This document shows positions 2,878-13,410 of a stretch of 64,000 nt of DNA, piece by piece (within the stretch, counting starts at the first letter, position 1; each line of letters begins with the position of its first letter). Source of the stretch: Parvimonas sp. oral taxon 393 str. F0440 (GTDB taxonomy: Bacteria; Bacillota; Clostridia; Tissierellales; Peptoniphilaceae); the NCBI GenBank assembly GCA_000223315.2, contig AFUS01000005.1, positions 372,001 through 436,000 on the forward strand, read 5' to 3'. The position numbers and the translations under genes were made by a program. The notes beneath the pieces are model-generated. The model was given only the letters and a program-made list of their open reading frames with translations. It was not told the DNA's origin and did not search any database.

Positions 2878-5735
2878 ATGTCAGAGAAAAAATAAAAAAT
2901 ATACAATCTAAACAAACTAAAAATGAGAAAAAAAGTTTTCTAAAAACAATTTTCAAAGTTTTAAATATCACTATATTGACAATTTTAATGATTGGTGCAG
3001 GAATAACAGGTATTTTTGCAACTACATTTGTCGATATTATGAAAGAAACACCGGTTGTAGATGCAACCAATATGAACGAACTTATGATTCAATCATCAAA
3101 AATACTTGACAGAGATGAAAATTTGGTTGAGAAAATAGAAAATTTAGAAAACAGAACAATAGTAAAACTAAAAGATGTTCCTGAACATTTAATAAATGCC
3201 TTTATTTCTATTGAAGACGAAAGATTTTATTCCCATAAAGGTGTTGACCCAATTGGAATAGCAAAAAGTCTTTTAGATACTGCTAGAGGAAGACTTAGAG
3301 GTGGTTCAACTATCGCTCAACAATTAGCGAGAAATATGTATCTTTCAAACGAAAAAAAGATTGAAAGAAAGTTAAAAGAAGCATATCTTGCTATAAAAAT
3401 AACAGATACTATAAAAAGAGAAGGTGTTCTTGAAGCATATTTAAATAGAGTTTTCTTGGGACAACATTCCTATGGGGTTCAATCTGCAAGTCAAGGATAT
3501 TTTTCTAAGGATGTAAAAGACTTAACTATTGCAGAGTCGGCACTTCTTGCGGCAATCGTTCAAAGTCCTACAAACTATTCTCTTTATAAAACTATAAAGC
3601 CGGAAAATGTAAGTGATGAATCTGCTGTAATAAAAGATCTAAACATCGGTGGTCAAGTTTATAAAGCGGTATACAATCCGAAAGTATTGGACAGACAAAA
3701 ATATGTTTTGAAAAAAATGTATGAACTTAAAAAAATAACTAAAGAAGAATATGAAAATGCACTAAACGAAGACGTATTTTCCGCTATAAAACCTAATAAA
3801 GGTTTTGAAAGAGAAGTTTCAACTTATTTTACTGAGTATGTTAAATACCAAGTAGCTGAAAAGTTAATGAAAAAGTACAATTATACAAAAGAAGAAGCCT
3901 GGAATAAAATTTACAATGGCGGACTTACTATTCATTCAACAATGGATCAAACTATTCAGAAAAATTTAGAAAAACTATACAGTGATTTTGCAAATGTTAT
4001 GAAAGCTCCAAAGAGAGGAAATCCTGCTTTCGCTTCTTTTAACAAAGATAAATCAAGTAATATCACTGATTCAAAAGGGAAAATTATACTATATAAAAAA
4101 TCTAACCTTATTGACGGAAATAATAATATAATAATACCAAAAGGTGAGTTTACTGTAAATGAAGATAAATCATTAGAAATAAAAAGCTCAAGGGTTTCAA
4201 TTTATCAAAATGTATTGTCAATAGCAAGTTTTTATACAGTTAACGACCAAAATAACCTAGTTACACATGGAATTGGAAACTTTCAAATTCCGGAAGGAAA
4301 TTTAACTTCAGAAAGCGATAAAAGTTTTAAAATTAATGCAGAATTCTTTGAAACTTATAAAGATTTTTATAGTATAAATGATAATGGAAGTTTATCTTTA
4401 AATTCAAAGTATTTCCAAATAGATGAAAAAGGTACATTGCAACCCCAATCATCTTCCGTTGTAATGAATCATAGAACAGGTGAATTAATCGCTATAATTG
4501 GTGGTAGAGAAACAACCGGACATCCCCTAAACAGAGCTTACAGAGTTCCAAGACAACCTGGTTCAACAATGAAACCATTAGGTGTTTATACTCCCGCATT
4601 GGATAATGGATATACTGCAGCTACCGGAATTGAAGATGCCCCACATTATAATGATAAAAAAGAACTTTGGCCAAAAAACTGGTATAATGGCTATAGAGGA
4701 TTGCAAACTTTAAGACAAAGCCTTGTACAATCTATAAACGTAAATGCTGTAAAAACTTTAGAAGATATTGGAATTGAAAAATCTAAAGAATATTTAAAGA
4801 GATTCGGTTTGATAAACGAAGAAAATGAATTGGATGATACTTATGTTTCAAGATCAGAAAGTGTGGATTATAACGATGAAAACTTGTCAAGTATGGCTTT
4901 AGGAGCTATGACAAGAGGTATAACTAACTTAAAAATGACCGGAGCTTATGCTGCAATAGCAAATGACGGAAAATATCTTGAACCTATTTCATTTACAAAG
5001 GTTGTTGATTCAACAGGAAAAGTTATTTTAGAACCGGAGCAAAAACAAAGAGAAGTTACTTCTAAAGAAAATGCTTTTATTATGAGAGATATTTTAAAAG
5101 GTGTTCCGGATGCAATGGCAAAAGGTGCAAAACATCCAACTATAGAAGTATCAGGAAAAACAGGTACAACAAGTGATATTAGAGACTCTTGGTTTGTAGG
5201 ATTTACTCCATATTATACAATTGGAACTTGGATAGGATTTGATAATCAAAATATTGAACTTAGTAACAATAATTCTATGGCTGCTACACTTTGGGGAAAA
5301 GTTAATAAAATAGTTTTAGAAGGAAAAGAACCTAAAAAGTTTGATCCACCTTCTGAAAATATAATTCAAAAATATGTTTCTATAAGATCCGGTTTACTAA
5401 TACCTGAAGGTTCAGGAGGAGGAATTTACGAATACTTTGTAAAAGGTACTGAGCCTACAAAATATGAAGAATTGTATTATATAATTTATCAAATTGATAA
5501 AAGAAATGGAAAATTGGCAAATACTACAACAAAAGATAAGTATATTGAAAACAAAAAGTACTATATAAAACCGGAAGCTTATAAGGAAGGTAAAACTGAT
5601 TATGCTCAAGGAGATTTTATAAATCCACCTCCAACAGAAGTTTCTGAAATAATAGATTCGGATAATTCACAAAATCCTACTGATGACAATAATTCAAATA
5701 ATAATAATAACAATAACAACAATAACGGAGAATAA
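2878..5735 (+). CDS. Class A penicillin-binding protein (glycosyltransferase-transpeptidase, PBP1A type)
   Basis: This bifunctional murein synthase has a short cytoplasmic N-terminus, one membrane anchor, a GT51 glycosyltransferase domain (EDERFYSHKGVDPIG, GGSTIAQQLARN), then a transpeptidase domain with SxxK (STMK), SxN (SIN) and KTG (SGKTGTTSD). About 150 residues with little family resemblance lie between the domains, and the tail is an Asn-rich run. I place the start at ATG 2878, seven bases after GAGGAGG. From that ATG the frame stops after five codons unless one A is added to the A-run at 2887-2892; the alternative TTG at 2856 lies upstream of the ribosome site and is unlikely. It makes peptidoglycan outside the membrane. 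Confidence 0.93.
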
Positions 5736-9190: not shown

Positions 9191-10462
9191 TTAAATCTTT
9201 TCTTTTATTTTAAATTGTGCCATTAATATACTTACCAATGTTATTCCAATTACAATAAGATAAATTGATTTGTTTTGCTCAAAGCCTAAAATCCCTTGTG
9301 GAATTAATTTTGAAATCCAAAGATAAACTCTGTCTCCAAAATATACTCCCATCGCAAAAAACAATTGAAATATTCCCATACTTACATTTCTATCTTCCTT
9401 TTCAAAATATTGCATTGCCATTGAAATCAGACAAGTATATGCAATTCCATATCCAAAACCGTTAAATACATATCCTAAAAATGCTGGAAGATAAGAATTC
9501 GTTAATAAAATTATTATATAAAAAACTAAATTTGAAGCCAGTCCTAAAACCAAAGTTTTTTCAATTCCGATTTTCTTTGCAAAATACGTTCCTGCAAGTA
9601 CACTTGCAATAAGTTGAGGAAATGCGAATAAAACATCAATATACGCCAAAAATATTGGGGGCATATTCAAATTAACTTTTGCATAGGCAATCATATTTGC
9701 ACCGGATGTTGAAAACTTTATAAATGAAACTAAAATTGCTATCAAACAGATATAGAAATATCCTTTAAATTCAAAAACTTTCTTTACTTTCTCAAAGCTA
9801 AATCTCTTTGCAGAATAAGAAACGTCTTTAACAAAAAAAGTTAAAATTAAAGCTACAATTGAAATTGTTGCAGAAAGAGTCCAAAGCAATTTAAAATTTT
9901 TATATGTTCCATAAGTTGATAAATATTGAATGGGTGCTGCTATAAATTCTGCTAAAAGTGGTGCTATTGATAATATAGATGCAGAAATTGCTGCTTTTTC
10001 TTTAGAAAAAGTCTCTGAAAACAACACATTGAAAACCGCAAGCATTGAAGCACATATTCCCATAGCTATTGATGAAAAATAAAGGCTACTATAACTTGGC
10101 TTTAAAACCACCATCAATGATGCCAATGTCAAAACAAAAAGTGCAATTTGAATAAATATTTTTTTCCTATTAAAAATATCACTTAATATAAAAATAGGTA
10201 GTCTTATAAAACAGCTTATAAGTCCATATGCAGAAGTTATCTGTGCTGCTAAAACAATTGAAAAGCCTAGCCCTCCCTCTTCCATAGGACTTATGGCATA
10301 AAGCTTTCTATATGCTCTAACTACAGTTATTCCACTCCAAAAAAGTACAAATAACCAGAATATAAGTTTTTGATTTCTGTCTAAATCATATTTTTTTGAA
10401 ATAAAAAATATAATTATAAAAGTTAAAATTATCATAAAAATTGATGAATAAAGTTTATACAT
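9191..10462 (-). CDS. Major facilitator superfamily transporter
   Basis: This 423-residue protein has about 12 hydrophobic segments and the MFS loop 2-3 pattern near SDIFNRKKIF. It shows no substrate-specific motif I recognise. The ATG follows AGGAG by six bases and lies only ten bases after the stop of the arsenite methyltransferase, so the two genes are almost surely co-transcribed. That suggests export of a methylated arsenical or related compound, but this is inference from position only. Other MFS roles (drug or sugar export) are equally open. The frame is intact. Confidence 0.8.
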   Translation of the reverse strand: MYKLYSSIFMIILTFIIIFFISKKYDLDRNQKLIFWLFVLFWSGITVVRAYRKLYAISPMEEGGLGFSIVLAAQITSAYGLISCFIRLPIFILSDIFNRKKIFIQIALFVLTLASLMVVLKPSYSSLYFSSIAMGICASMLAVFNVLFSETFSKEKAAISASILSIAPLLAEFIAAPIQYLSTYGTYKNFKLLWTLSATISIVALILTFFVKDVSYSAKRFSFEKVKKVFEFKGYFYICLIAILVSFIKFSTSGANMIAYAKVNLNMPPIFLAYIDVLFAFPQLIASVLAGTYFAKKIGIEKTLVLGLASNLVFYIIILLTNSYLPAFLGYVFNGFGYGIAYTCLISMAMQYFEKEDRNVSMGIFQLFFAMGVYFGDRVYLWISKLIPQGILGFEQNKSIYLIVIGITLVSILMAQFKIKEKI

Positions 10463-10471
10463 TTTTCACTC

Positions 10472-11236
10472 CTAATTCTTTGGCTTAACTGCCAAAATTT
10501 TACCACGTCTTATATATTTCTTTAAATCTAATTTATGTCCCCATTTTGCAAGGTATTCTTCAGTTAATTCCTCTTCAATTATTGTATAGAGTTCAAAACC
10601 GACATTTTTTAAAATACTCTTTAACTTCTCCGAAGTTATAGATCCTGCGACTCAAGTAGCATAAAAAATCGGTTCATCTTTAACCCACGATGGCAATTCA
10701 TTAAACTGAACAATATCCGAAATTGAAATTCTTCCTCCAGCTTTTAAAACTCTAAAAATTTCAGAATACACCTTTTCCTTATCTTCACATAAGTTTATAA
10801 CACAATTTGAAATTACACAATCAACAAAATCGCTCTCAACTTTAAGATTATCTATATCTGAAACTCTAAAATCTGTATTTAAAAATCCTTTTTTCTCTCT
10901 TATGTAATTTGCTTTTTCAATCATTTCAGAAAGTCTGTCAATTCCAATAACTAAGCCTTTTTCTCCAACTATTTTACAAGCCTTAAATACATCCATACCT
11001 TTGCCACAACCCAAATCTAAAACAATTTCACCACTTTTTAGATTAGCATTTTGAATTGGATTTCCACAGCCCAAGCCAAGATTTGCTCCGTTTTCTATAT
11101 CTTCTAAAGTATAACCTAAACTTAAAGCAATTTTCTTTTCTATTTCTTTACTATTATCGCTATCTCTTAATCCATCATTTACAGCTATATTTTTATATAA
11201 ATCATCTATAGCTTTTTTACTATCACAACATTTCAC
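10472..11236 (-). CDS. arsM: Arsenite methyltransferase ArsM with in-frame TGA, probable selenoprotein
   Basis: The protein reads as a SAM-dependent ArsM: N-terminal CC, LGLGCGNP, SAM motif LDLGCGKGMD and the arsenic-site motif SNCVINL. Codon 195 is TGA (10654-10652). The frame continues with VAGSI and a family-like C-terminus to a TAG at 10474-10472, 254 residues in all. Canonical ArsM has a cysteine (GCVAGA or GCISGA type) exactly at the TGA, the third arsenic-binding Cys. A hairpin meeting bacterial SECIS rules lies 20 bases downstream. I therefore call Sec195. The alternative is a nonsense change of TGC or TGT to TGA. Reading stopped at the TGA would lose the last 60 residues. The enzyme would methylate trivalent arsenic. 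Confidence 0.8.
10618..10642 (-). promoter_or_regulatory. Candidate bacterial SECIS element
   Basis: After the TGA come nine bases, then the stem TCT-A-TAACTTC, loop GGA, and GAAGTTA-A-AGA: a 7-bp upper stem, one A-A mismatch and a 3-bp lower stem. The loop begins with G and is 20 bases from the TGA. This fits the published bacterial SECIS criteria (loop of 3-14 bases with an early G, 16-37 bases from UGA). SelB would read it to insert selenocysteine. Confidence 0.75.
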
Positions 11237-11359
11237 AATAAGCCTCCATACAACTTAATTATTTTATCACAAAATACAATATTAGTCTAATTTAGTATTT
11301 AATATTTACCACAATATAATTTCAACTTAACAATTCTAATTTTTACCGTCATATATATC

Positions 11360-11418: not shown

Positions 11419-11619
11419 ATGAAAATAACAAAAGATATGTTAATAGGAGACATTATCCAAATTCATCCGGATGCTGTTGAAATTCTATTTAATTTTGGAC
11501 TTTCTTGTGTAGGTTGTCCTGCAAGTCAAATGGAAACTCTTGAAGAAGCTACAATGGTTCATGGACTAAATTTAGATTTACTTCTTGATGTCTTAAATGA
11601 AAATAACACTTCAGTTTAG
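11419..11619 (+). CDS. DUF1858 domain redox protein
   Basis: This 66-residue protein is a single DUF1858 domain, called the hybrid-cluster-protein-associated redox disulfide domain. The conserved core is IHPDAVEILFNFGLSCVGCP, with the CxxC pair near residues 33-36. A strong AGGAGG site sits before the ATG. It stands alone on the plus strand with its own promoter and terminator between arsM and pepD. The domain is found in anaerobes near redox enzymes; the partner is not known. A disulfide or metal-binding role is inferred from the CxxC. Confidence 0.85.
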   Translation: MKITKDMLIGDIIQIHPDAVEILFNFGLSCVGCPASQMETLEEATMVHGLNLDLLLDVLNENNTSV

Positions 11620-13143: not shown

Positions 13144-13410
13144 CTATTTATTATATTCATCAAATTCTTCTATGCTGAAAAGTATTTTTTCCCCATCATT
13201 TATTACCATTGCAGGAATTCCTATTGAGCCTTTTTCTTTTGCAAAATCAAATGCAGAATTTTCTCTAAATTTTAAAAATTTTTTAAGATTTGCTAAATTT
13301 TCAGTAATGTCTAAATACAAATACTTAACTCCTCTTTCATCAAGTGCCTCTTTCATAACTATACAATCAGGGCACATACTTGAACCAAAAACAACTTTTT
13401 TCTTAACCAT
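13144..13410 (-). CDS. Glutaredoxin-like thiol-redox protein
   Basis: This 88-residue protein has a thioredoxin fold with the active site SSMCPDC near residues 11-17 and the cis-Pro segment IGIPAMVIN near 64-72. It resembles the small glutaredoxin-like proteins of anaerobic Firmicutes. It probably reduces a protein disulfide in the cytosol; the partner is unknown. It lies between glyS and pepD with gaps of eight and nine bases. Confidence 0.85.
   Translation of the reverse strand: MVKKKVVFGSSMCPDCIVMKEALDERGVKYLYLDITENLANLKKFLKFRENSAFDFAKEKGSIGIPAMVINDGEKILFSIEEFDEYNK

Follow-up and report, generated by a model that had tools for sequence, protein, structure and literature searches.

Arsenite methyltransferases that carry selenocysteine (Sec) are already known as a kind: two reviews list the enzyme and a 2016 survey counts 41 examples. 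One review includes arsenite methyltransferase in a listing of experimentally verified prokaryotic selenoproteins (PMC9312934). Table 1 of the other places it under 'Experimentally verified', with the family entry NF008823, the motif UxxG, the representative WP_011987699.1, and a citation of Fomenko et al. 2007 (PMC13188914). The 41 selenoprotein arsenite methyltransferases of the survey come from 39 organisms (PMC5029168), and a passage in a further paper names arsM among the selenoprotein families of prokaryotes and eukaryotes alike (PMC2398784). Among open-licence PMC papers, we found no report of a member from Parvimonas.

Parvimonas is a human-associated genus. We analyzed a stretch of 64,000 nucleotides (hereafter the window) from Parvimonas sp. 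oral taxon 393 str. F0440, and it contains a gene whose product, judged by its predicted sequence, is a Sec-containing ArsM homolog. Our preferred reading is that the product of this gene is a short As(III) SAM methyltransferase of the ArsM type, with UGA codon 195 decoded as Sec under the direction of a hairpin, and we assign this reading a probability of roughly 0.78 when the arsenite step is included. The decoding of codon 195 as Sec, considered by itself, is a nearly certain prediction, and what the sequences themselves show in its favor is an open reading frame, a conserved TGA, Sec/Cys exchange among relatives, a conserved hairpin, and a complete sel gene set. With this locus, a small selenoprotein class in which Sec likely serves as a metalloid ligand and not as an ordinary redox thiol gains a well-supported member from Parvimonas.

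Reading frame and arsenic-ligand residues

The arsM-like gene occupies positions 10472..11236 on the minus strand of the window, with a GTG start at 11236 and a stop codon at 10474-10472. As read from the sequence, a GGAGG that resembles a ribosome-binding site lies 6 nt upstream of the GTG (11243..11247, minus strand). The frame includes a single in-frame TGA at codon 195 (10652..10654, minus strand), which is the predicted selenocysteine U195, and readthrough would give a protein of 254 residues. The frame had been proposed to stay open beyond the TGA for 59 codons, and indeed 59 more codons separate the TGA (10654-10652) from the stop. Taken alone, this extension is weak evidence for readthrough, and an open run of at least 59 codons after a stop is present in 4 of the 52 stop-to-stop frames of at least 150 codons in the window (the arsM-like frame included). 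It is the conservation among relatives, described below, that places readthrough far beyond chance. A table-11 ORF listing ends the frame at codon 194 and thereby omits the third arsenic ligand. Thus, arsenic methylation in anaerobes of this sort may be under-annotated.

When C is substituted for U, the protein matches NF008823, the NCBIfam model for arsenite methyltransferase, with an E value of 8.5e-70 and a score of 235.3 bits. This match spans residues 7-253, and therefore homology is evident on both sides of the TGA. The U-V-A-G at the site also conforms to the UxxG motif that Table 1 of PMC13188914 gives for selenoprotein ArsM, a point of likeness within the ArsM family. The Parvimonas protein differs from the catalogued selenoprotein ArsM, however, in falling under the curated NF008823 cut-off of 263 bits. 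Given this score, the case for arsenite as the substrate is built on homology and on the pattern of cysteines.

Three other family models, NF041536 (ArsM/DUF2284), NF041537 (ArsM/AhpD), and NF047649 (MTase/UXPK-star), also match the Parvimonas protein (E 9e-38 to 2e-36), with scores of 125.8-129.7 bits that lie under their cut-offs of 460-575 bits. According to the table in PMC13188914, these families have a methyltransferase domain with UxxG and a total of 2 or 3 Sec residues. Their names imply an extra domain, whereas the Parvimonas protein has one Sec and no such domain was found in it.

An alignment with the solved ArsM chain 4fr0 (whose residue positions were counted by hand from the alignment) pairs U195 with Cys224, Cys57 of the GCGNP motif (codon 11066..11068, minus strand) with Cys72, and Cys145 of the SNCV motif (codon 10802..10804, minus strand) with Cys174. 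There are small length differences between C57 and C145 and none between C145 and U195. We take Cys72, Cys174, and Cys224 of 4fr0 to be the As(III)-binding cysteines of ArsM. By this alignment, all three ligand positions are kept in the Parvimonas protein, the third as Sec. The sequence-only reading had placed the TGA at the third arsenic-binding cysteine of ArsM and had noted that the other expected cysteines, in GCGNP and SNCV, are present, and the alignment with 4fr0 bears out both assignments.

The four solved Cys-type chains considered (4fr0, 4kw7, 5eg5, and 5evj) are similar to the Parvimonas protein in the SAM fold region and at the GCG, SNCV, and third-cysteine positions, except that 5eg5, as aligned, carries Ala at the first cysteine position. 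The third position is Cys in all four chains and Sec in the Parvimonas protein. The solved chains are also longer, at 377-387 residues with matches that end at their residue 245 or 246, versus 254 residues for the Parvimonas protein.

Sec and Cys at one site among relatives

Homologs at E<=1e-40 were found in 27 of 130 genomes of the same family (the genome of origin included), with identities that range from 38 to 100%. In every one of these 27 genomes the short ArsM is the Sec form, with one TGA inside the gene and always in the same alignment column. Apart from these TGA codons, the matched stretches contain just one stop, a TAA that forms the last codon of the match in genome G084, and the sequence that follows the TGA is conserved at the protein level.

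These data bear directly on two readings in which codon 195 is not decoded as Sec. If the TGA were a real stop, arising from a nonsense mutation or belonging to a pseudogene, then a truncated protein of 194 residues would be made. This reading draws some support from the fact that long open runs after a stop are not rare in the window, as noted above. Nevertheless, a TGA shared in one column by all 27 homologs down to 38% identity, followed by conserved protein sequence that is free of further stops apart from the TAA at the very end of one match, renders it very improbable. A sequencing error, with TGC or TGT as the true codon, is less probable still: nothing was found in its favor, and the same TGA recurs in separate assemblies, including those of Parvimonas micra SYY and P. 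parva S3374, whose homologs are each 85% identical to the Parvimonas protein studied here.

Sec decoding is further suggested by exchange at the site. An alignment of 33 loci, which include five second copies (L039-L043, from another collection) of the genes at L015, L016, L025, L027, and L030, has TGA in the same column in 32 cases and TGT in one, from a Bacteroidetes MAG. A search across the order matched 59 of 249 genomes at E<=1e-40, with Sec and Cys forms both represented at the same site and with TGA, TGT, or TGC as the codon in the other homologs of the order. The loci read across the order yielded 35 distinct 60-base sequences of the Sec form and 21 of the Cys form, after identical stretches were merged and L083 (a fragment in which no site was found) was dropped. 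The Sec/Cys exchange that had been suggested as a check on the assignment is therefore present among relatives.

Six Sec forms from the same family (genomes G076, G077, G083, G084, G085, and G086) score over the NF008823 cut-off, and these are 49-53% identical to the Parvimonas protein. There are also 14 family matches that lack TGA. All eight that were read at the site (in G055, G003, G032, G020, G053, G083, G054, and G046, leaving out G002, G004, G005, G008, G021, and G070) have Cys there. Five of these genomes (G055, G053, G083, G054, and G046) carry a Sec form together with an ArsM-like Cys paralog that has the sequence GECLxGAMY (loci L075, L079, L080, L081, and L082). The frames of the paralogs extend for 355-367 codons in four of the five genomes, and the one in G046 is shorter and covers profile positions 87-239 only. 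The presence of Sec and Cys forms within one genome offers a natural comparison.

Two variations were observed among Sec-ArsM loci. At the order level, some have an extra Cys beside the Sec (CGUV in L051-L054 and SCUV in L059), which is possibly a Cys-Sec pair. In addition, Sec-ArsM sequences reside inside open frames of 452, 425, and 370 codons at L030/L068, L034, and L035, respectively, which may reflect gene fusions or simply open sequence that flanks the gene.

Downstream hairpin and selenocysteine machinery

Bacterial SECIS elements are hairpins located directly downstream of the UGA, and their loop, which lies some 16-37 nt beyond this codon, contains a G. The Parvimonas gene has a SECIS-like hairpin of this type at 10618..10642 (minus strand), predicted by folding and supported by covariation and by a comparison of Sec and Cys forms. 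Its upper stem of 7 bp (10638-10632/10628-10622) carries the loop GGA (10631-10629) 20 bases after the TGA, just as the sequence-only reading had described for a hairpin beginning 10 bases past that codon. By itself this hairpin is weak evidence and is not unusually stable, with an MFE z-score of -0.45 and 54 of 200 shuffled sequences folding at least as well. An Rfam scan of positions 10400-11300 at E<=10 returned two chance matches and no match to a SECIS family. Because single-sequence folding failed to separate the hairpin from shuffles, we relied on relatives.

The covariation set comprised 26 distinct 60-base sequences from 32 loci, with the Cys locus L044 left out and identical stretches merged. 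For the seven-pair stem, 22 cells are changed on both sides versus 9.1 in shuffles, and 67.6% of cells are paired versus 59.1 in shuffles. The covariation score is 0.334, versus 0.203 in shuffles and 0.106-0.237 in slid registers, a comparison in which the proposed register is favored because the structure was taken from one of the sequences. None of 500 shuffles matched the double-sided cell changes, the covariation score, or the paired-cell share, although the relatedness of the sequences inflates this test. Two other measures gave no excess: 245 of 500 shuffles reached the observed number of pairs with a change on both sides, and 407 of 500 reached that of further pair types. Pairing is incomplete because some genera have the stem shifted by three bases in one direction or the other.

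A custom scan for G-loop hairpins, distinct from bSECISearch, was applied to the order-wide sequences. Hairpins at -2.5 kcal/mol or below are present in 31 of 35 distinct Sec sequences versus 4 of 21 distinct Cys sequences (Fisher 2.4e-7, relatedness ignored), and the mean hairpin energy is -4.2 for Sec sequences versus -0.84 for their codon-shuffled counterparts. In 34 of 35 Sec sequences, the best hairpin has a loop that begins 16-23 nt beyond the codon, whereas none of the 21 Cys sequences has its best loop in this interval. The exceptional Sec sequence, L027, has its loop at 33, and the nearest Cys sequence, L076, has its loop at 24. Thus, the hairpin in relatives goes with the TGA, consistent with the role that had been proposed for it.

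The genome also encodes the machinery that Sec insertion would demand. The genes selD, selA, and selB are arranged in a row in L010, scoring 358.7, 604.3, and 361.3 bits, respectively, each over its equivalog cut-off. ARAGORN and Rfam both detected tRNA-Sec, the latter with 70.7 bits against a cut-off of 47. Hence selA, selB, selC, and selD, whose absence would have counted against the assignment, are all present. The selD gene is read through a TGA of its own (SGUAAK), and the grdA gene of this genome has one in-frame TGA. The selD Sec gene lies outside the window (L010:5631-6686, plus strand, TGA 5688-5690), and because it is a Sec gene, a table-11 list of ORFs misplaces its start downstream, at TTG 5736.

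SelA scores over its cut-off in 49 of the 130 family genomes. These 49 include every one of the 27 that have the Sec form, an overlap with a chance of 8e-15 if the genomes were independent, which they are not. Across the order, SelA is found in 163 of 249 genomes and in all 59 that have an ArsM-like gene of either form. Its co-occurrence therefore fails to discriminate Sec from Cys forms at that level.

Proposed mechanism, substrate, and neighboring genes

In the mechanism we propose, SelB and tRNA-Sec would decode UGA 195 as selenocysteine, with insertion directed by the downstream hairpin, whose first base is the 10th after the TGA. Trivalent arsenic would then probably be held by the U195 selenolate together with the Cys57 and Cys145 thiolates and be methylated from SAM while bound. 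The Sec residue may accelerate either the exchange of ligands or the reduction that comes between methylations. It is more speculative that the methylated arsenic leaves the cell via the MFS protein encoded downstream. The gene for this transporter (9191..10462) is on the same minus strand and starts 9 nt downstream of the arsM-like stop codon, and its protein is possibly a co-transcribed exporter of the arsM-like product. A similar MFS gene adjoins arsM in L086, the one other Parvimonas region whose neighbors were read, and a reading by eye of the ORFs listed for G052 and G046 showed none beside arsM there.

Sec might also be incorporated as proposed into an enzyme whose natural substrate is something other than arsenite, such as Se, Te, Sb, or methylarsenite. 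The shortfall against the NF008823 cut-off is compatible with this view, as is the fact that the two ars families searched for, the exporters Acr3 and ArsP_1, have no match in the genome (completeness 89.68%). Similarly, no ars genes were recognized beside arsM, and the tested neighbors (the MFS transporter, a DUF1858 protein, and a glutaredoxin-like protein) belong to no named ars family. The second, Cys-type ArsM-like gene in five relatives may mean that roles are divided. However, all three positions that we take to bind arsenic are kept, as two Cys residues and one Sec, and the six same-family Sec forms at 49-53% identity do exceed the cut-off. On balance, we regard a different substrate as unlikely, though it carries far more weight than either reading that denies Sec decoding. 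We are similarly doubtful, without dismissing the idea, that the Sec form has a distinct job in anaerobes such as Parvimonas, perhaps a further methylation step or action on another metalloid. Methylation of arsenite remains our preferred function for the protein.

Two small proteins are encoded near arsM. Next to arsM and divergent from it is a gene for a small DUF1858 protein (window 11419-11619, plus strand), a hybrid-cluster-associated redox disulfide domain (TIGR03980). A small glutaredoxin-like protein with the sequence CPDC is encoded at 13144-13410 (minus strand), and it gives weak, sub-cut-off matches to Uxx-star families, of which it would be a Cys form.
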